From an uncultured Bacteroidales bacterium (lineage in GTDB: Bacteria > Bacteroidota > Bacteroidia > Bacteroidales > Bacteroidaceae), in NCBI GenBank assembly GCA_902774335.1, contig CACYHW010000003.1:62001-126000 (forward strand): 64,000 nt of DNA. The letters run 5' to 3'. Both the position numbers and the translations under genes were made by a program. Shown piece by piece: positions 28,871 through 55,573 of this stretch. Under the pieces are notes generated by a model. The model was not told the origin of the DNA. It was given only the letters and a program-made list of their open reading frames with translations, and ran no database searches. Within the stretch, counting starts at the first letter, position 1, and every line of letters starts with the position of its first letter.

Positions 28871-30040
28871 ATGAAAAACGTAAAATTGTTTGCATTGTTT
28901 GCACTCACTCTGTCAACACTTCATTCATGTAAGGAAAAACCTTCACTCCAAGTTAACGAGATTGATTATCTCAACAAATCGGAACAACTTATTGAGAGCG
29001 TCCCTGTCGATATTGAAATGCCGTTAGTCGTTTACAGCGTACTGTCATGCGACACCTTTAACATACTGCTGGCACAGGATCCCAAGGGCTTTATATTCGT
29101 ATACTCACAGGATTGGAAACTGCTTGATGTATTCTGCCATCAGGGAAGAGCCAGGAACGAATTCCTGGAGCGCCCCTCATTACGAAGCAAGCAGGTCTTC
29201 AAAAGCCCGGAAGGTCATATCCTGCTCCCACTCCAGGATGTGGATTGCATCAAGGTTCTGGACGTAAACCAGTCCTTGGCTGCCCACAGGGCAATCATTT
29301 CCCGGACCAGGGATTTTACGTTATTCGACGACTCCAAGGGTACGCTTAACGGACAGGAAGTAAAGATCCGCAGATCGCGTAAATACCTTTTTCTCGACAA
29401 CGACATATATAACACCCTGGAATATGCGGATGGTATAAGCATTGCGGAAATTGAAATCCTATCCGAATACAAGGTCAGACATGACACTACACTGCTGGAG
29501 ACTCCCCTGCCACTTAAGCAGATTCTCAATACTGTCGGCACCCAGCCCTCTACAAAATACTTGAGGGAATTCTACAGGCATCCCAGCCGTAATCTCATAA
29601 TAGAGCCGTTCTTCGTAATGGACTACATTTTGTTCTATGATCTGGACCACGACAAAATCTTTGCAATCCACCAGAACGGCAGTCCCAGCTTCAACGATGA
29701 TCTGGAACAGAAACCTGTTTACGACAGCGAGGGCAACATTATGTACTATGATGAGGAGAGAGGATGTTTTGGCGATGCACTGGTAACCGATTCCTATTTC
29801 ATGGTATTCTACTTTGGAGGCGAATACAGTATGGGTGACGAGAATAAGGAGTGGCCCAGATGTGAACTCCTGTTCTTTGACTGGGACGGCAACTTTATAA
29901 AGTCGGTAAAGCTGGATACCTATATCGACGCCACCTCCTTCAACCCGCAGACCAAGATCCTTTACGGAATCCCCACTTCGGAATCAGACCAGGACGAGGT
30001 ACTGCTCAGCTACGACCTTTCCAGCGTCATAGACTGGTAA
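28871..30040 (+). CDS. BF3164-like lipoprotein (beta-propeller type), paralogue 1
   Basis: A 389-residue lipoprotein with lipobox LHSC at residue 20. It resembles the BF3164/6-bladed beta-propeller lipoproteins of Bacteroidales (KGFIFVYSQDWKLLDVF, HQGRARNEFLE, LLFFDWDGNFIKSVKL near the C-terminus). The function is unknown; the likely location is the periplasmic or outer face. It is clearly homologous to the gene at 30798 (shared QDWxL, GRARNEFLE, FFDWxGNFIKSVKL). Its last 14 bases overlap the 3' end of the antisense SprT gene. Confidence 0.82.
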   Translation: MKNVKLFALFALTLSTLHSCKEKPSLQVNEIDYLNKSEQLIESVPVDIEMPLVVYSVLSCDTFNILLAQDPKGFIFVYSQDWKLLDVFCHQGRARNEFLERPSLRSKQVFKSPEGHILLPLQDVDCIKVLDVNQSLAAHRAIISRTRDFTLFDDSKGTLNGQEVKIRRSRKYLFLDNDIYNTLEYADGISIAEIEILSEYKVRHDTTLLETPLPLKQILNTVGTQPSTKYLREFYRHPSRNLIIEPFFVMDYILFYDLDHDKIFAIHQNGSPSFNDDLEQKPVYDSEGNIMYYDEERGCFGDALVTDSYFMVFYFGGEYSMGDENKEWPRCELLFFDWDGNFIKSVKLDTYIDATSFNPQTKILYGIPTSESDQDEVLLSYDLSSVIDW

Positions 30041-30689
30041 GAGGCGTTGCACCCTCCAGATACGGAAAGACATCCTGAGTATCCCTATAGATAACATTCA
30101 GGGCCGATGAGCACGGAAACCTGTTGAACCAGGGCTCATCGGTCTCATAAAAGGAGATACGGCTCACACGGCCGCTTGCCATCACGCCGTTCCTGTACAT
30201 CTTGACGCTCTTCCTTATGCAGGGCAGTACCTTGATACCGGTGCGTCCGTCGGTGAACGTAATGAGCGCTATCACATGGGGCTTGCGGCGTGTGTCGACG
30301 GCCTGCTCACGCAACTGGGGACTGCTGCGGTGCGACACGGTGATATGGCGGCCGTGAGTACGGTTTATCTCATCCATCATGCTGCGGAACACCTTGCCGT
30401 GGGCCGATGTATCCTTGATGCCGTTCCGCCAGATATAGTAGTGGATCATTTCGTGTATCACGGTATCCTCTATCTCGGCCTCCGGAAGGTCGAACCTGGC
30501 GCTGATGCAGATGCTGAAACCGTACATCTCATATCCGCCCAACAACCGACGGCGCTTACGGTATCGGCACACACCCAGATATGTCCGGGCATTGCTCACA
30601 CGTAAAGGCACAGGCTCAAGCTTACCCTCAAAGCAAAGCCGGTTAAAATAATCAAACCGTTCCCGAACAAAATCCACCGTAGCTTTCAT
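30027..30689 (-). CDS. SprT-like zinc metallopeptidase domain protein
   Basis: This 220-residue protein carries the SprT-like zinc motif HEMIHYY (His79, Glu80, His83) and a third ligand candidate, His97 in TSAHGKVF, 14 residues later. SprT-family proteins include the DNA-protein crosslink protease Spartan; the bacterial role is unclear. The C-terminal half has no obvious zinc-ribbon cysteines. It lies antisense between two paralogous lipoprotein genes. Its -7 box (30694-30701) ends five bases from the ATG, so the mRNA may be leaderless. Confidence 0.87.
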   Translation of the reverse strand: MKATVDFVRERFDYFNRLCFEGKLEPVPLRVSNARTYLGVCRYRKRRRLLGGYEMYGFSICISARFDLPEAEIEDTVIHEMIHYYIWRNGIKDTSAHGKVFRSMMDEINRTHGRHITVSHRSSPQLREQAVDTRRKPHVIALITFTDGRTGIKVLPCIRKSVKMYRNGVMASGRVSRISFYETDEPWFNRFPCSSALNVIYRDTQDVFPYLEGATPLTSL

Positions 30690-30797: not shown

Positions 30798-31952
30798 ATG
30801 AGGACTTTATCTCTCCCTACAGCGTTTGCAGTGACATTGTCGTTACTCTTTTCATGCAAGCCTAAACCTACACTCCAAGTAATTGAAACCGATTACCTGA
30901 ATAAGGCGCAGATTACCATCCAGGCCGATACTGTCGATGTGGAGTTACCTCTGTCCGTACACAGCATGATCCATTGCGACTCACTGAACATCGTGATAGC
31001 CGAGGATCCTCAGGGATATATATCCGTCTATTCCCAGGACTGGCAGCTGATTGACAGGTTCGGCAATAAGGGAAGGGCAAGGAACGAGTTTCTTGAGGTA
31101 CCTATGATAAACAGCAACCAGATTTTCAAAGGTGCCGACGGTCATATTCTGCTGCCTCTTTGCGAAACGAGAGGCAGAATGATAAAGCTGGTGGATATAA
31201 CGGAATCAATGGACAAGCACCGGACCGTTATTACCGATTCCAGAAGATTCGAGTTTGGAGATCGTCACAGGGTATACGAAGAAGAAACCGATTCTTACGT
31301 CTATTACTTATGCGATTTCACCTTCCTGTTTCTTGATGACAACATCTACCATACAATGGAGACCACCGAAGCCAGTTTTTATGATAGGTTCAAAGAACCC
31401 ATACAATACAGGATAAGGTATGACACCGCTTTTGTGGAAAAGCCGGATATCCTTACAGCCATGGAAGAGCTTGTGGGTCCCAGACGCCAGTCTAAGTTCA
31501 TCAGAACAAATTACCGACATCCCAAACGCAATCTCATTATCGAGCTGTTTGAATACAACAACTATATCGCATTCCTGGACCTGGATAACAACAGGCGCTA
31601 TTTCGTTCATCAGGAGGGAGCGATAACCTTTGACCAGGAGATAGAGAAAGTGGAAATCAATCAGGACGGAGACACGTTTTCCATACCCAAATACAGGACT
31701 TTTACCAACGCAATCACGACCGACTCTTTCTTTATGGTAACATATTACGGCAGCTCATATTTCGACGAGGATGCGACACCGGAGCTCATGTTCTTTGACT
31801 GGGAAGGCAATTTCATCAAATCCGTCAAGCTGAGTCTCGCAATCGGTTGCCTATCCTACGACCCCAATCTAAAAACCCTCTACGGATTAAACATAAAATC
31901 CGATAACGAAGAGCTCATCCGCTTCAACCTCTCCACCATCATGGATTGGTAA
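30798..31952 (+). CDS. BF3164-like lipoprotein (beta-propeller type), paralogue 2
   Basis: A 384-residue lipoprotein with lipobox LLFSC at residue 20. It aligns with the gene at 28871 along its whole length (ETDYLNKA, DPQGYISVYSQDWQLIDRF, KGRARNEFLEVP, FFDWEGNFIKSVKL), indicating a tandem duplication later separated by the SprT gene. The differences are spread evenly, so the duplication is old. The function is unknown. Confidence 0.82.
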   Translation: MRTLSLPTAFAVTLSLLFSCKPKPTLQVIETDYLNKAQITIQADTVDVELPLSVHSMIHCDSLNIVIAEDPQGYISVYSQDWQLIDRFGNKGRARNEFLEVPMINSNQIFKGADGHILLPLCETRGRMIKLVDITESMDKHRTVITDSRRFEFGDRHRVYEEETDSYVYYLCDFTFLFLDDNIYHTMETTEASFYDRFKEPIQYRIRYDTAFVEKPDILTAMEELVGPRRQSKFIRTNYRHPKRNLIIELFEYNNYIAFLDLDNNRRYFVHQEGAITFDQEIEKVEINQDGDTFSIPKYRTFTNAITTDSFFMVTYYGSSYFDEDATPELMFFDWEGNFIKSVKLSLAIGCLSYDPNLKTLYGLNIKSDNEELIRFNLSTIMDW

Positions 31953-31966
31953 GAAAAGCAATTCCC

Positions 31967-32049
31967 ACGCAGGTCCTAACGCAGGTCCTAACGCAGGTCC
32001 TAACGCAGGTCCTAACGCAGGTTCTAACGCAGGTTCTAACGCAGGTTCA
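31967..32049. repeat. 12-bp tandem repeat array
   Basis: Seven units of ACGCAGGTCCTA start at 31967 just downstream of lipoprotein 2. Units 1-4 carry TCCTA, units 5-6 TTCTA and the last TTCAA. The period is exactly 12. Confidence 0.9.
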
Positions 32050-32085
32050 ATAGTATTGGAGCGAGCGAATGCCTGGAGCGAGACC

Positions 32086-32144
32086 GCGGTCCCGGAGGGC
32101 CGCCAAGCGAAATGAAATGGAGCGTGTTTACGGAGTAAACTAAA
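32086..32144. repeat. Dispersed double-hairpin repeat, copy 2
   Basis: The same two modules as at 8948-8986: GCGGTCCCGGAGGGCCGCC at 32086-32104 and GTTTACGGAGTAAACTAAA at 32126-32144. The 21-base spacer reads AAGCGAAATGAAATGGAGCG plus one T. Confidence 0.75.
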
Positions 32145-32172
32145 AAAAGGACGAGGGGGCCTTCAGCCCCCT

Positions 32173-32195
32173 GGTTCGAATCCGTCAACGCCCAC
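32173..32195 (+). repeat. Inverted partial copy of the tRNA-Val 3' end
   Basis: These 23 bases equal the T-loop, T-stem 3' side and acceptor 3' side of the adjacent tRNA-Val plus one base, in inverted orientation. They pair perfectly with 32230-32252. Confidence 0.85.
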
Positions 32196-32229
32196 AAAAA
32201 AAGAGAGCCTCCTTTTGAAGACTCTCCTC
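32196..32229 (-). terminator. Terminator of tRNA-Val
   Basis: On the minus strand GAGAGTCT...AGGCTCTC is followed by seven T residues. It sits between the tRNA and its inverted 3' copy. Confidence 0.75.
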
Positions 32230-32230
32230 G

Positions 32231-32305
32231 TGGGCGTTGACGGATTCGAACCGCCGACCCTCTGCTTGTAAGGCAGATGCTCTGAACCAGCTGAGCTAAA
32301 CGCCC
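32231..32305 (-). tRNA. tRNA-Val (anticodon UAC)
   Basis: A complete 75-base cloverleaf: acceptor GGGCGTT/AACGCCC with discriminator A, D-arm GCTC/GAGC, anticodon stem TCTGC/GCAGA enclosing loop CTTACAA (anticodon TAC), and T-loop TTCGAAT. CCA is not encoded. It is monocistronic with its own terminator. Confidence 0.95.
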
Positions 32306-32443: not shown

Positions 32444-33436
32444 ATGGAAACAGTTCTCAGCGGCATACGCCCCACAGGAAACCTTCACCTGGGCAACTAT
32501 TACGGTGCAGTGACAAGCTTCATCAAGCTTCAGGATTTGTACAGATGCTTCTTCTTTATAGCAGACTGGCACTCCCTGACCACACATCCCACACCTGAGA
32601 ACATCCAGAACAGCGCCCGCACCATTCTGGCCGAGTACCTGGCATGCGGACTTGATCCCGAAAAGGCAACCATCTACGTTCAGAGCGACGTGCCCGAGGT
32701 TGTAGAGCTTTACCTCTACCTCAACATGAACGCTTACCTGGGCGAGCTGGAGCGCGTGACATCATTCAAGGAGAAGGCACGCAAGCAGCCCGACAACGTG
32801 AACGCCGGTCTGTTGACCTATCCCACCCTGATGGCATCGGACATTATTATCCATAAGGCCAACAAGGTTCCCGTGGGCAAAGACCAGGAGCAGAACATGG
32901 AGATGGCACGCAAGTTTGCCCGCCGCTTCAACCAGATGTACGGAGTTGAGTTCTTCCCCGAGCCCGCATCATTCTCGCTGGCCAAGGAGGGCGGCATCAA
33001 GATTCCCGGACTGGACGGATCGGGCAAGATGGGTAAGAGCGAGGGCAACTGCATCTACCTGTGCGACGAGCCCTCAGTAATCCGCAAGAAGGTTATGAAG
33101 GCTGTGACCGATGCAGGTCCGCAGGCCATGAACAGCGAGAAGCCCGAGGTTATACAGAACCTCTTTACACTGCTCGACGTTGTCTCAACAAAGGATACAT
33201 ACAACTACTTCAACGATAAGTGGAACGACTGCACACTCCGCTACGGCGACCTTAAGAAGCAGCTGGCCGAGGATATTGTGGCTGCCACCGATCCTATCCG
33301 CGAGCGTATTAAGGAGTTCCAAAGCAATACGGAACTTTTGGATAAGATTGCCCGGGCTGGTGCTGAGAAGGCTCGCGAGAGCGCTTCTAAGACACTTCGG
33401 GAGGTTCGGCAGATTATCGGTTTCAGGGTATATTAA
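32444..33436 (+). CDS. trpS: Tryptophanyl-tRNA synthetase
   Basis: A 330-residue class I synthetase that charges tRNA-Trp. The HIGH-type motif is TGNLHLGNYYG (about residues 9-19) and the KMSKS-type motif is SGKMGKSEGN (about 193-202). The start METVLSGIRPTG is normal for the family. It stands alone between the tRNA-Val region and repeat element A1. Confidence 0.97.
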   Translation: METVLSGIRPTGNLHLGNYYGAVTSFIKLQDLYRCFFFIADWHSLTTHPTPENIQNSARTILAEYLACGLDPEKATIYVQSDVPEVVELYLYLNMNAYLGELERVTSFKEKARKQPDNVNAGLLTYPTLMASDIIIHKANKVPVGKDQEQNMEMARKFARRFNQMYGVEFFPEPASFSLAKEGGIKIPGLDGSGKMGKSEGNCIYLCDEPSVIRKKVMKAVTDAGPQAMNSEKPEVIQNLFTLLDVVSTKDTYNYFNDKWNDCTLRYGDLKKQLAEDIVAATDPIRERIKEFQSNTELLDKIARAGAEKARESASKTLREVRQIIGFRVY

Positions 33437-33446
33437 TATTGTTACT

Positions 33447-33689
33447 CGCCGCTACGCGGCTCGACGGTTTTGTGACTTTTGATGCCCTTCGGGCTCAAAG
33501 TCTCGGGACAGAAACTTATCTGCGTATTAGATACACGACATTTTTTTAGTTTGGGGCGGCGACGCCCCAAACCCGTTCCGCGGGACATGGTCCCGCTCCA
33601 CTCTGCCGGCCTTCCAGGCCGGGTAAAACGAAACCCTGACAACGCTTTGCTGTCAGGGTTCCGTTTTACTGGGTGCAGCTGGAAACCTT
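33447..33689. repeat. Structured dispersed element A, copy 1
   Basis: About 240 bases of serial hairpins between the converging trpS and mutL. They are GCCGC-tac-GCGGC (33448-33460), GCCC-ttc-GGGC (33484-33494), GTTTGGGGCG-gcga-CGCCCCAAAC (33549-33572), GCGGGAC-atg-GTCCCGC (33580-33596), CCGGCCT-tcc-AGGCCGG (33606-33622), and a long stem GTAAAACG...CGTTTTAC (33623-33669) enclosing AACCCTGAC/GTCAGGGTT. A second copy at 54078-54320 keeps the stems with compensating changes. Confidence 0.9.
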
Positions 33690-33735
33690 GTACGTATTAG
33701 AATCACGCTTTTGATTACGCAGGTGCGTTGGTATT

Positions 33736-33760
33736 AATTCTCAATTCTCAATTCTCAATT
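33736..33760. repeat. AATTGAG heptamer array at the mutL 3' end
   Basis: On the minus strand three and a half units of AATTGAG follow the mutL stop directly and overlap it by two bases. Confidence 0.75.
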
Positions 33761-35570
33761 ATTCCAGCCACTTGGAGATTTCCTGATCGGATTTAACCAC
33801 ATAGGTGGGTTTGGCGTCGGGAGTGCGGGAAGGCATGGCGCATGATTTGAGGGAACGCAGGAGTTCCTGCATCTCGGATTCAGAGAGATGACGTCCTGCG
33901 GGGATAGCGGTCTTGCGGGCCATAGCCAAAGCCATGGATTCCAGCTGACGGTCCTCCTCCTGAGTGGGGTTGATCCTCAGGTCGGCTATCATATCGGTAA
34001 TAAGACGCTCATAATCCTGTCCCTCCATACCCGAAGGTATACCCTGAACGGCAATAGCTCCGCGACCCATGTCCGATATGTCAAAGCCAAGAGCCGCAAA
34101 ACGGGGCTTGAGGTCGGCAAAGGCGGCTGCATCGGACTGTGACAGCTGGAACATCTCGGGGAAGAGCAGTCCCTGTGACGCGGCGCTGTGGTTCTTGGCA
34201 TCGGCCAGATAGCGCTCGTAGAGCACGCGTAAATGGGCGCGGTGCTGGTCCACAACCATAAGTCCCTGTTCCGATGCCGCAAGGATATAGCGGTCGGCAT
34301 ACTGGAACACCGATACAGGCTGCTCCTCGGGCTGCACAAGCGGCTCGTCGGCAGGATGGAACGGTATGGTACCCTCGCTTATCTTATGGTCAATCACATC
34401 GCCGTACAGCTTGGTCCAGTTATCCGCGTTGCTGCGGCTGGTGTGAGTCTCGCTGCGGCTGCCTGCAAAGGGGTTGAAGGATGTGTTGATCTCCACCTTA
34501 GGCTGCACTACAGGACGTGACGGGTCATAGATTGGTATATCGGGCATATCGGCCGTATTGAAATCAATGGTGGGCATCTCCTCGAACTTGCCTACGGTCT
34601 CCTTTACGGCTGCCATAATGATCTTCCAGATAACCTGCTCATCCTGGAACTTTATCTCGGTCTTGGTAGGATGTATGTTGACGTCGATGGTATCGGCCGG
34701 AACAGTCAGGAACAGGAAGTACGAAGGCTGGTCACCCTCCGGTACAAGACCCTCGTATGCGCTCAGCACGGCTTTGTGGAAATAGGGATGACGCATAAAG
34801 CGGCCGTTCACAAAGAAGAACTGCTTGGCTCCCTTGCCCTTGACGCTGTCCAGGTTGGAGCAGAATCCGCTCACCTTTACGACCGATGTCTCCACCTCGA
34901 CGGGAAGCAGAGCCTCGTTCATCTTGCGGCCGAACAGGTTGACAATACGCTGTTTTACGGCCGATACGGGCAGGGACAGCACCTGCTCGTTCTGATGGGT
35001 CAACTCAAAGCCCACCTCGGGATGAGCCAGAGCCACACGTTCAATCTCATTGAGGATATGTCCGAACTCCGTCTGGTTACTCTTAAGGAACTTACGGCGG
35101 GCCGGCACATTGTAGAAGAGGTTACGCACCGTGAACATACTGCCTTGGGGGCAGACACACTCCTCCTGCTGCACTACTTCCGAAGCCTTGATGGTTATGG
35201 AGGTTCCTGTTTCGGAGTCGGCTGTGCGTGTGCGCAGTTCCACCTGGGCTACCGCAGCAATTGAGGGCAGAGCCTCGCCGCGGAATCCGAATGTGGTAAG
35301 TGTATAGAGATCGTCCGATTCACGTATCTTGGAGGTGGCATGACGCTCAAAGGCCAGGCTTGCGTCGTCGGCACTCATTCCGCAGCCGTTGTCGATTACC
35401 TGTATGGATGTGCGGCCGGCATCGGTCAGAATGACCTTGATGTTGTCGGCACCGGCATCGACTGCATTCTCCACCAGCTCCTTAACCACCGATGCGGGGC
35501 GGTTGACCACCTCACCGGCTGCAATCTGGCTGGCCACCTGCGGCGAAAGAACCCTGACTTTACCCTCCAT
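33759..35570 (-). CDS. mutL: DNA mismatch repair protein MutL
   Basis: A 603-residue GHKL ATPase that links mismatch recognition to strand removal. The N-terminal motifs are ASQIAAGEVVNRP, the ATP-site VIDNGCGM, and FGFRGEALPSIAAVA. The C-terminal region contains VVDQHRAHLRVLYE. The endonuclease signature DQHAxxExxxxE would sit here, but Ala is Arg444 and the first Glu is Leu447. It is the last gene of the OstA-like / small membrane protein / mutL group, six bases after the preceding stop. Confidence 0.96.
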   Translation of the reverse strand: MEGKVRVLSPQVASQIAAGEVVNRPASVVKELVENAVDAGADNIKVILTDAGRTSIQVIDNGCGMSADDASLAFERHATSKIRESDDLYTLTTFGFRGEALPSIAAVAQVELRTRTADSETGTSITIKASEVVQQEECVCPQGSMFTVRNLFYNVPARRKFLKSNQTEFGHILNEIERVALAHPEVGFELTHQNEQVLSLPVSAVKQRIVNLFGRKMNEALLPVEVETSVVKVSGFCSNLDSVKGKGAKQFFFVNGRFMRHPYFHKAVLSAYEGLVPEGDQPSYFLFLTVPADTIDVNIHPTKTEIKFQDEQVIWKIIMAAVKETVGKFEEMPTIDFNTADMPDIPIYDPSRPVVQPKVEINTSFNPFAGSRSETHTSRSNADNWTKLYGDVIDHKISEGTIPFHPADEPLVQPEEQPVSVFQYADRYILAASEQGLMVVDQHRAHLRVLYERYLADAKNHSAASQGLLFPEMFQLSQSDAAAFADLKPRFAALGFDISDMGRGAIAVQGIPSGMEGQDYERLITDMIADLRINPTQEEDRQLESMALAMARKTAIPAGRHLSESEMQELLRSLKSCAMPSRTPDAKPTYVVKSDQEISKWLE

Positions 35571-53440: not shown

Positions 53441-53983
53441 TTATTCGTTATCTGAATCCATCAGGCTGCTCAGTGCATCCCAACGCGGATCGGTTGCTCC
53501 GGTATCTCCTTCGGGACTACCCTCCTCACCATCCTCGGCGGTATGCTCGTCGAGCTTCTCCATCATGCCCTTGTTGCACTTGCCCGGAGCGTGAACATGC
53601 TTAATGGGAATGGCCAGAGCTATGAACTCATAGATGTACCATGCCACGTTCACGATACCCTTGTCCTCGGGTACAACAACTATATCACCGTCATCGGCAA
53701 AGTCAGGTCCAAGTTTTACCTTGAGTTCGCCTGTGTTCTCGATATCGAGTGACATGTCGTCCAAGCAACGGTCACAAGTAACTATAACCGAGCCTGCTAC
53801 CGAAAATGCCAGATGGTATACACCGGATGCCTTGGTTACCTTCAGGTCAACATTAACCTTGCCGCGCTGCACCTCTTCGCCCTCCACAATGCTGAAGAAC
53901 TCCTGGTCAACGGTCCAACTGTAGGTTGAATTGGCTTCGGTAAGGCCCTTGAGGTCAACGTTATATTTATCCAGTCTTCCCAT
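53441..53983 (-). CDS. yceD: DUF177 / YceD family protein
   Basis: A 180-residue protein paired with rpmF in most bacteria and implicated in 23S rRNA accumulation. The Cys pair VTCDRCLDDM (about 85-94) and the later DPRWDALSSL near the C-terminus are typical. An in-frame GTG at 54004 lies inside the -7 box, so the ATG at 53983 (MGRLDKYNVDLKGL) is the start. The C-terminal part is acidic. Confidence 0.9.
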   Translation of the reverse strand: MGRLDKYNVDLKGLTEANSTYSWTVDQEFFSIVEGEEVQRGKVNVDLKVTKASGVYHLAFSVAGSVIVTCDRCLDDMSLDIENTGELKVKLGPDFADDGDIVVVPEDKGIVNVAWYIYEFIALAIPIKHVHAPGKCNKGMMEKLDEHTAEDGEEGSPEGDTGATDPRWDALSSLMDSDNE

Positions 53984-54003
53984 CAAACAATTTTTTCGGG
54001 GCA

Positions 54004-54011
54004 CAAAGATA
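54004..54011 (-). promoter_or_regulatory. -7 element for yceD-rpmF
   Basis: Minus-strand TATCTTTG (54011-54004), 21 bases before the yceD ATG. Confidence 0.55.
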
Positions 54012-54077
54012 AGACATTATTTTCGCAAAGTGAAATGATTAAGAATTTTTTTGGTATGAGAGCCATCCAGCGGATTC

Positions 54078-54320
54078 TCACTGCTACGCAGTTCGAAGTA
54101 TTTTGGGCTTTTTGGGCCTTTGGCCTCAAAAGCCTCGGGATGGAGGCTTATCTGCGTATTTGATACACGACCTTTTTTTAGTTTGGGGCGGCGACGCCCC
54201 AAACCCGTTCCATTCCATTTCATTCCATTCCACTCTGCCGGCCTTCCAGGCCGGGTAAAACAAAACCCTGACGGGCTTCGCTGTCAGGGTTTTGTTTTAC
54301 TGGGTGCAACTGGCAACCTT
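54078..54320. repeat. Structured dispersed element A, copy 2
   Basis: This aligns with 33447-33689 almost end to end. It keeps ACTGC-tac-GCAGT (54080-54092), GGCC-ttt-GGCC (54115-54125), the 10-bp GTTTGGGGCG stem with GCGA loop, CCGGCCT-tcc-AGGCCGG, and the long stem now GTAAAACA...TGTTTTAC (54255-54300). The fourth hairpin of copy 1 is replaced by an unfolded ATTCC-rich run. It lies between yceD and the histidine kinase gene. Confidence 0.9.
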
Positions 54321-54322
54321 TA

Positions 54323-54418
54323 TATACCTTGAGGAAATAGGATGTAAACCTTTGTATACCTTGAGGGAATAGGATGGAACCCTATTTATACCTTGAGGGA
54401 ATAGGATGGATACCTTTC
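54323..54418. repeat. 32-bp tandem repeat, three units
   Basis: Units start at 54323, 54355 and 54387, each beginning TATACCTTGAGG(g/a)AATAGG. The array runs from the end of element A2 to three bases before the histidine kinase stop codon. There are no unique spacers, so it is not CRISPR. Confidence 0.9.
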
Positions 54419-54421
54419 CTT

Positions 54422-55573
54422 TTATTTGGGTAACTCTATTCTGAAAGTGGTTCCCTTGCCTAGTTCGGAGTGGGCGACGTAGATTTTGCCTTTGTGGTAC
54501 TCGGTTACTATTCTTTTGGCTAGGGAGAGGCCTAGACCCCATCCTCTTTCTTTGGTGGTGTAGCCGGGATCGAATACGCTTCGCCAGGAGTTCTTGGCTA
54601 TTCCTTTTCCGGTATCGGTTACGTCTATTATTACACTGTTCTTCTCCTCGAGGAGCTTTATGGTCAGCTTGCCTTTGCCGCTCATGGCATCGACAGCATT
54701 CTTGCAGATATTCTCAATGACCCAACCGAATAGCGAGGCGTTGACACGCGCATTGACCGGAGGATTGGGGAAGTCGCGAACGAACTTGACCGTAGCGGGA
54801 GAGCGGTGCTCCACGTAATCTATCACGCCGTCCAGCACGCCAACCATATCGGCCTGAACGGGCTCCGGCAGTGAACCTATCTTGGAGAATCGCTCGGCCA
54901 CCATCTGCAGGCGGTTCACATCCTTCTCCATCTCGGATATCAGCTCGTCGTCATACTTGTCCTTCAGGAGTTCGGTCCAGGCCATGAGTGACGATATGGG
55001 TGTTCCCAACTGATGGGCTGTCTCCTTGGAGAGTCCCACCCACACGCGGTTCTGCTCGGTCTTCTTGAAGCTGAGCAGCGCGAATATTGCTATCAGCACA
55101 AAGAGCATGACCACGCCCAGCTGAATGTAGGGATAGACGGTCAGGCGGTTCAGGAGCAGCGACTCGTCAAAACACACCTCATTATAATGGACGGTATCGG
55201 TATCGTCAAAGTAGATCTTGATTGAGTTGCCCAGACTGCGCATACGCTCCACATAATTGCTCAGGTACTGCAGCGTATCGCCCTTGCGGATCTCGATGTT
55301 CAGGAAACTGCGGATCCCGTTGTTCTCATCCACCACGATAACGGGGATGGTCTGGTTGCCGGACATCACGGAGAGCACCAGACTCAGGTCGGTATTCTCG
55401 TCGGCATCGCTCAGCGACTGGTATGCCTGTGCAAAGAGCTCCATCTTGGAGTGCTCCTCACGCGACAGGTCCTTGACCAGCGACTGTGACACGAACAGCG
55501 AAATGAATGCTATTATTATGGCTACGACTATAAGGACGGTCCTTATGCGTTTGAATTCCCTGAATTTCCTCAT
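54422..55573 (-). CDS. Membrane sensor histidine kinase
   Basis: This 383-residue kinase has two transmembrane segments (about 11-32 and 148-168) enclosing a periplasmic sensor of about 115 residues. The phospho-accepting His187 is in SKETAHQLGTPIS. The ATPase domain shows the N box NICKNAVDAM, G1 DTGKGIA and G2 GWGLGLSLAK. No HAMP or PAS domain is visible. No response regulator gene lies beside it, so it is an orphan in this window. Confidence 0.92.
   Translation of the reverse strand: MRKFREFKRIRTVLIVVAIIIAFISLFVSQSLVKDLSREEHSKMELFAQAYQSLSDADENTDLSLVLSVMSGNQTIPVIVVDENNGIRSFLNIEIRKGDTLQYLSNYVERMRSLGNSIKIYFDDTDTVHYNEVCFDESLLLNRLTVYPYIQLGVVMLFVLIAIFALLSFKKTEQNRVWVGLSKETAHQLGTPISSLMAWTELLKDKYDDELISEMEKDVNRLQMVAERFSKIGSLPEPVQADMVGVLDGVIDYVEHRSPATVKFVRDFPNPPVNARVNASLFGWVIENICKNAVDAMSGKGKLTIKLLEEKNSVIIDVTDTGKGIAKNSWRSVFDPGYTTKERGWGLGLSLAKRIVTEYHKGKIYVAHSELGKGTTFRIELPK

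Follow-up and report, generated by a model that had tools for sequence, protein, structure and literature searches.

The window analysed here, a 64,000-nt stretch of DNA from an uncultured Bacteroidales bacterium, contains two long-form copies of a structured intergenic element (Table 1). Copy 1 occupies a convergent gap between a class-I W/Y tRNA synthetase gene (+, ending at 33436) and mutL (-, 33759-35570), with its first hairpin, H1, beginning 11 nt past the synthetase stop codon. The gap of copy 2 is tandem, its neighbours being a yceD-type gene (-, 53441-54004) on one side and a gene for a histidine kinase (-, 54422-55573) on the other. AATTCTC tandem units are found between copy 1 and mutL (33735-33762, +). 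Elsewhere in the window there are two alike lipoprotein-like genes (28871-30040 and 30798-31952, +; starting MKNVKLFALF.. and MRTLSLPTAF..), separated by an opposite-strand gene (30027-30689). A sequence-only reading of this DNA had matched 33447-33689 with 54078-54320, and the two indeed align end to end, with a mean column identity of 83% across a slightly longer alignment. The stem changes listed in that reading were confirmed, with GCCGC/GCGGC becoming ACTGC/GCAGT, GCCC/GGGC becoming GGCC/GGCC and, in H5, GTAAAACG/CGTTTTAC becoming GTAAAACA/TGTTTTAC, as was the presence of ATTCC-rich sequence in copy 2 in place of the hairpin at 33580-33596 of copy 1. The GCGA-looped stem, called invariant, is identical in both window copies, but it belongs to the long form only, found in three of ten own-genome copies; the remaining seven full copies have a short hairpin at that position.

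Table 1. Positions of the two element copies, their parts and the related module near tRNA-Val in the window
Feature	Position	Strand	Basis
Copy 1, long form, CTCG before H1 to CTGGAAACC	33443..33687	+	blastn, alignment, covariance model
Copy 1 H1 hairpin GCCGC-TAC-GCGGC	33448..33460	+	fold, family covariation
Copy 1 H2 hairpin GACTTTTGATGCCC..GGGCTCAAAGTC	33474..33502	+	fold; outer pairs covary across copies
Copy 1 conserved core, without consensus hairpin: GGGACAGAAACTTATCTGCGTATTAGATACACGACATTTTTTTAG	33505..33549	+	
Copy 1 H3, 10-bp stem, GCGA loop (long form)	33549..33572	+	fold, covariation
Copy 1 optional hairpin GCGGGACATGGTCCCGC; ATTCC-rich sequence there in other copies	33580..33596	+	
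Copy 1 H4 hairpin CCGGCC-TTCCA-GGCCGG	33606..33622	+	fold, covariation
Copy 1 H5 hairpin GTAAAACG...CGTTTTAC	33623..33669	+	
Copy 1 right-end motif CTGGAAACC	33679..33687	+	
Copy 1 tail module (..GTACGTATTAGAATCACGC..GATTACGCAGGTGCGTTGGTATT); similar tails behind other copies	33688..33735	+	
Copy 2, long form, left-end GCCATCCAGCGG to CTGGCAACC	54062..54318	+	alignment, covariance model
Copy 2 H1 ACTGC-TAC-GCAGT	54080..54092	+	fold
Copy 2 H2	54106..54134	+	fold
Copy 2 core	54137..54181	+	alignment
Copy 2 H3 (GCGA loop)	54181..54204	+	fold
Copy 2 H4	54238..54254	+	fold
Copy 2 H5	54255..54300	+	fold
Copy 2 tail: tandem units around ..ACCTTGAGGGAATAGGATGGAA..	54319..54418	+	
Related module (C) behind tRNA-Val; has the CCTTTTTTTAGTTT..AAACACGCTCCATTTC.. 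part in common	32053..32157	-	
Inverted copy of tRNA-Val 3' end, 23 nt, no mismatch, between tRNA-Val terminator and C module	32173..32195	-	

The claim that the element exists in two copies did not hold. The own genome (2.35 Mb in 29 contigs, 87% complete) gave 14 matching pieces by blastn and 17 matches with a covariance model, R1, built from 17 copies; ten of these are full elements (E 1.4e-33 or better) and seven are weak. The covariance-model search of this genome and its relatives, as had been proposed, thus returned many homologues: at a cutoff of E 1e-4, 25 of the 37 genus genomes searched have a match, 14 of these with a best match of 2.5e-19 or better and 11 with weak matches only (best E 4.7e-12 to 4.2e-6). 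The other 12 have no R1 match at E 1e-4, three of them being 96-98% complete, and the highest per-genome totals, weak matches included and with 80 candidates scored in each genome, are at least 62 (in G008), 37, 28 and 22. The weak matches inspected, in the own genome and three others (G018, G050, G006), proved to be a related C module, described below. In a family-level search under stricter filters, 2 of 101 genomes matched, both of the same genus (1 of 30 genera), and a DNA query found no match in 16 genomes drawn from the order's other families. A pattern scan of a named genome collection found 72 stretches, 70 of which come from nine assemblies of uncultured Bacteroidales type (RUG, RGIG and UBA MAGs); reticulum in two kinds of record title points to the rumen tract, from which the RUG series presumably also derives. 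The remaining two, in Flavobacterium (L073) and Segetibacter (L101), look like chance. A match to a known Rfam family had been named beforehand as contrary evidence, and none was found for the element over the window at the gathering threshold. At E up to 1, four loci gave two tRNAs and four sub-threshold microRNA-model matches, some over H5, and a known RNA family was rejected, no Rfam score lying above the curated threshold. One copy used as query found no match among phages and plasmids, nor did a core pattern scan of viral contigs, and phage or plasmid cargo was rejected on these grounds. No description of the family was found among the papers listed from the open-licence PMC literature; this family of modular structured repeats is real and apparently undescribed.

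Across the family the element has, in order, a left end GCCATCCGGCGGG, H1, a T-rich run, H2 (e.g., GACTTTTATGGCCC..GGGCCTAAAAAGTC), the core, H3, H4, H5 and a right-end motif. The core is strongly conserved (type GGATGGAAACCTATCTGCGTATTAGAAACAACCTTTTTTTAG), H3 has a short (GTTTCCTTCTGGAAAC) and a long (GTTTGGGGCGGCGACGCCCCAAAC) form, H4 has the consensus CCGGCCTTCCAGGCCGG, and H5 is GTAAAAC..GTTTTAC with a very variable interior. The right-end motif CTGGAAACC is followed in many copies by small units spaced by TGGAAACC. The length is about 155-180 bp from H1 to H4, and about 205-245 bp including H5. Between H5 and the right stop codon of 74 copies, GGAAACC-like anchors number none in 20, one in 34, two in 13, three in six and four in one. 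By eye, complementarity between CCATCCGGCGG on the left and GGATGGAA/CTGGAAACC on the right is only partial, in end-motif listings that retain some chance pattern matches. Several loci depart from the plan. An insert of about 75 nt with its own hairpin is nested within the core at the copy-2 site of one genome (L136, G020), and longer model matches in G022, G023 and G008 suggest further nested inserts. L020 (with about four altogether) and L107 have additional H1-like hairpins in tandem on the left side of the element, so H1 may multiply alone. L165 has two tandem elements, the second without H1 and H2 and beginning shortly past a GGAAACC motif.

Folding and covariation were evaluated in the window copies and across the family. 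Against dinucleotide shuffles the fold has a z of -6.4 for copy 1 and -7.3 for copy 2. In an alignment of 77 copies fitted to the R1 structure, which excludes H1, 93.1% of cells pair and one H3 pair is unpaired in 33 of 73 sequences. Two-sided changes occur in 8 of 19 pairs versus 4.5 (sd 0.8) in shuffles, and the covariation score is 0.132 versus 0.047 (sd 0.005), a value reached by none of 500 shuffles, in an alignment whose fitting to structure favours covariation. The covariation over the 77 copies is real. With the register set by distance from the core, the three outermost positions of the H2 stem are paired in 74 of 89 copies; among distinct H2 sequences the count is 54 of 69, versus a shuffle mean of 26.8 (sd 2.7, highest 37; 5000 arm shuffles). 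Column pair 8-18 of H1, in 20 long-form copies, is C-G in six, G-C in six, U-A in four, A-U in two and broken in two. H5 arms pair at 11.2 of 12 positions within a copy versus 8.0 between copies, a difference overstated because the 3' arm was picked for pairing. RNAalifold missed H1 and H2 on a first mixed alignment and recovered them on a single-form alignment. The polarity of G-U versus A-C cells over distinct hairpins (19:6 in H1, 28:44 in H5) has the expected direction, but was set aside as a test of the transcribed strand because the H1 set includes wrongly called stems. The compensating changes had been taken earlier to imply selection on structure. Their significance is upheld, but entire hairpins are swapped in blocks too, and part of the covariation may derive from replacement or palindrome-templated repair.

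The element is placed mainly between converging genes. Its 63 gaps (from the window and 70 of the 72 loci of the pattern scan, L073 and L101 being omitted; genes from a simple ORF chooser) are convergent in 37 cases, tandem in 24 and divergent in two, versus 16, 61 and 46 of 123 control gaps of at least 60 nt in the same stretches (Fisher p 2.5e-10 for convergent enrichment and 4.3e-8 for divergent depletion). An earlier count under slightly different rules, with one chance match included, gave 46, 28 and 5 of 79. In the 24 tandem gaps the right end points toward the neighbour's 3' end in 18 and the opposite way in six (p 0.02). The median distance from the left stop codon to the start of H1 is 17.5 nt (52 copies, middle half 14-27), and from the end of the last GGAAACC-like motif to the right stop codon 11.5 nt (58 copies; 5 nt or less in 22, the longest above 300). 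Five C-type or chance loci (L073, L101, L040, L129, L190) were omitted from the stop-distance, H2/H5 pairing, terminator and orthologous-site sets, as was L106, which removed one chance match but also lost one true copy.

Terminator-like hairpins were scored as a stem followed by a T-rich tail, with overlap of the tail and stem base allowed. On the reverse strand 55 of 92 copies qualify versus 13.0 in shuffles, the best match lying at H5 in 50; on the forward strand there is a small excess, 65 of 92 versus 51.2, with about 43 best matches at H5 and about 13 at H1. Both strands qualify in 46 of 92 copies versus 8.0 in shuffles. T-rich tails accompany the H5 hairpins, copy 1 H5 is terminator-like in the mutL direction by the simple stem-and-tail rule, and textbook two-way terminators occur among the H5 variants, e.g., AAAAAAAGGTGGCCC..GGGTCACCTTTTTTT in L020. 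A stricter terminator scanner flagged no hairpin in either window copy.

Orthologous sites revealed turnover of the gap contents. The copy-2 site is filled in G000, G016, G022 and G020, and the element is absent from the gaps of the other 17 of 20 loci compared, a comparison that leaves out L163 (the 3-kb gap of G007). Four of the 20 loci (L137, L139, L140, L148) are empty without an extra base at the junction, and other element-less loci have unrelated small inserts. In G005 (L151) this site has another kind of intergenic insert, whose ends are inverted (AAGCTTAATGGTATAGA..TCTATACCATTAAGCTT) and whose interior includes a GACCTTTTTTTATTTCGC stretch. The copy-1 site is filled in G000 and G008 and unfilled in the other eight genomes compared: in four species (L156-L159) an unrelated two-way terminator hairpin, as judged by eye, stands in place of the element, in L155 the stop codons overlap with nothing between, and L160-L162 have other sequence or another gene. 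Several sites are filled in two or more species. Between L018 and L077 the flanks are 96-97% identical and the elements, one short and one long form, 66% identical, with the difference spanning roughly stop codon to stop codon. H5 is block-swapped between copies at other loci, L031 and L053 being near-identical through H4 and then having different H5 blocks, and L171 has the element and L125 a different hairpin between flanks that are 97-98% identical. In L022 and L078, the elements are 98.8% identical and the flanks 81-86%. Orthologous copies are thus conserved above their flanks in some pairs and below them in others, and a uniform signal of constraint is lacking. The 12 filled/empty comparisons listed revealed no target duplication of constant length; several of them reuse one empty site, some have other sequence in the "empty" one, and most have gaps that are too diverged.

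The related C module shares CCTTTTTTTAGTTT-hairpin-AAACRCGCTCCATTYCATTYCGCTTGGCGGCC with the right half of the element; it follows genes for tRNA, tmRNA and 5S rRNA as well as one protein gene. Between terminator and module there is often a copy of the gene's own 3' end in inverted orientation, so placed that gene end, terminator and inverted copy form one long hairpin (z -9.8 for tRNA-Val). Such a copy (score of at least 15) accompanies 24 of 55 tRNA or tmRNA genes with a C module within 300 nt, and 12 at a score of at least 20, many of these genes being orthologous and so not 55 events; it accompanies none of 41 such genes without the module in the same set of loci, a control that includes 30 tRNA loci from three genomes. 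A 5S gene also has an inverted 3'-end copy. Inverted copies reach about 40 nt, some without mismatch, C-type loci being 32053-32305 (-) of the window, L039, L127, L193, L197, L203, L213, L215, L217 and L244. Short tandem units of the CCTGCGTTAGGA type lie downstream of the tRNA-Val module (window 31950-32060, -). Around the main element, inverted flank copies of 11 nt or more gave six matches at 5 of 94 pattern copies, some being REP-type hairpins, in a set that includes chance matches; their general presence was rejected on this low count. The association of the C module with inverted tRNA and tmRNA 3' ends points to a self-primed copying step, and to our knowledge self-primed copying of gene ends has not been linked earlier to a repeat family. 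More broadly, the element family and the C module could together form a novel mechanism by which gene ends are built and moved, in which a mobile element enters at terminators and then spreads as an exchangeable gene-end cassette; we regard this proposal as improbable. By that proposal, a terminator hairpin would fold back and be extended by copying the adjacent gene 3' end, which would account for the inverted copies at tRNA, tmRNA and 5S genes; the extended end would be joined to the ACCTTTTTTTAG module.

Candidate movers were sought in the same genomes. Y1-type transposase genes are present in 11 of 21 genomes searched, and no element end lies beside them at eight loci, at two of which the script chose a neighbouring ORF. 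A match to an insertion-sequence end had likewise been named beforehand as contrary evidence, and this check, which covered Y1 transposases, found none. Palindromes of other types adjoin the Y1 gene at six or more of the eight; L175, L176, L178, L179, L186 and L189 have RAYT-type Y1 genes next to their own REP-like palindromes (GGGGTCTGACCCC and GGGGACGGTTC types). Reverse transcriptase (RVT_1) genes occur in 3 of 16 genomes searched, including 1 of the 10 carriers among them, and a reverse transcriptase is disfavoured as current driver for this reason, although these carriers are 78-97% complete. Neither gene type tracks copy number.

From the hairpins and placement we infer a likely role in termination, and from presence, absence and swaps, probable movement. 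The favoured reading, held with moderate confidence, is that these are genus-restricted, non-autonomous, modular interspersed repeats serving as replaceable, often two-way terminator cassettes between convergent genes. The elements would enter short convergent-gene gaps by an enzyme or recombination route. Their retention would be due to H5, which would stop transcription of the right-hand gene and often that of the left-hand gene as well; in some copies H1 and the T-rich run after it may contribute to termination, and the gap occupant would be a replaceable cassette. Against this stand the failure to find a transposase (with Y1 searched), clear terminal inverted repeats or a regular target duplication, as well as the small forward terminator excess, with about 13 forward best matches at H1, the silence of the stricter scanner on both window copies, the uneven conservation of orthologous copies relative to their flanks, and the possibility that convergent placement reflects no more than harm from insertions elsewhere.

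The sequence-only reading had offered two identities, and its structured mobile (MITE-like) half is supported by the dispersed copies, copy-number differences among species, filled and empty orthologous sites and module swaps. A classical MITE, derived by deletion from an insertion sequence, mobilised in trans by its transposase and without host function, would be short and non-coding with many dispersed copies, as found here (ten full in the own genome, strong matches in 14 of 37 genomes), and present or absent at orthologous sites; the ends also have a weak inverted likeness (CCATCCGG.. versus ..GGATGGAA / CTGGAAACC). Its convergent placement would be survivorship, and such placement can arise simply from harm done by insertions elsewhere, as PMC3049150 argues for pneumococcal repeats. 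However, the listed filled/empty comparisons lack a constant target duplication, the Y1 search found no partner transposase, and survivorship alone leaves the orientation bias in tandem gaps and the terminator-like H5 unexplained, so that we consider a classical MITE rather unlikely. Of a different kind is the proposal that hairpin covariation arises from template switching and block exchange of palindromes, not from selection on structure. It is possible, if somewhat doubtful: whole H5 blocks are exchanged between near-identical copies (L031/L053) and G-U cells are rare (11 of 1421) versus 74 cells changed on both sides in the model alignment, but one H1 column pair has all four Watson-Crick types among 20 copies, and the T-rich tails go with the H5 hairpins.

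The other identity, a non-coding RNA family, was not supported, as convergent-gene placement and terminator-like hairpins fit a 3'-end element better. A trans-acting RNA with its own function would account for a conserved core adjoining covarying hairpins, but we judge it very improbable given the absent Rfam match, the range from none (in near-complete genomes) to at least 62 matches among sister species, the tie to gene 3' ends on both sides, and promoter-like matches near copy 1 at chance level (2 versus 2.1). Mobilisation of REP/BIME-like repeats by RAYT (Y1) transposases is disfavoured further and appears extremely improbable. The genus does have Y1-type genes, but their presence is independent of the element (5 of 9 carriers versus 6 of 12 match-free genomes), and the eight loci have other palindromes instead of its ends.

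Among known repeats, ERIC, RUP, Correia and CerM differ from the element in placement and module set, and Porphyromonas gingivalis, host of the BrickBuilt MITE, belongs to the Bacteroidales. The former repeats, compared by description in the pertinent part of PMC2229807, are likewise non-autonomous and structured. BrickBuilt, as outlined in part of PMC4596501, is also intergenic and non-coding with inner tandem units, but has ISPg1/ISPg9-like terminal inverted repeats, and for the element no such ends or partner insertion sequence were found. REP/BIME sequences are extragenic palindromic repeats too; by the portions of PMC2817692 and PMC3733652 that concern them, REPs are 20-40 bp and RAYT-linked, and the element is 155-245 bp without RAYT link at the loci examined. 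In kind, the element is closest to the pneumococcal SPRITE and BOX repeats, a likeness based on their description in sections of PMC3049150. SPRITEs of Streptococcus pneumoniae are small interspersed repeats, terminator-like, enriched between convergent genes and near gene 3' ends; the element shares a terminator-like hairpin near gene 3' ends (strong in reverse, weak in forward) and convergent enrichment, and both are nearly confined to a few related species, but SPRITE belongs to another phylum and the element is multi-hairpin and modular. BOX (S. pneumoniae) resembles it as a modular, structured, non-autonomous intergenic repeat with variable inner units; its convergent enrichment is weaker than that of SPRITE in the same sections, and its length is set by the number of boxB modules, whereas the element swaps different hairpins as blocks.

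In summary, under the cassette reading, species of the genus seem to draw many convergent gene ends from one exchangeable pool of hairpins. Since occupants change between species even at 96-98% likeness of the flanking genes, terminator turnover is directly measurable in this genus.
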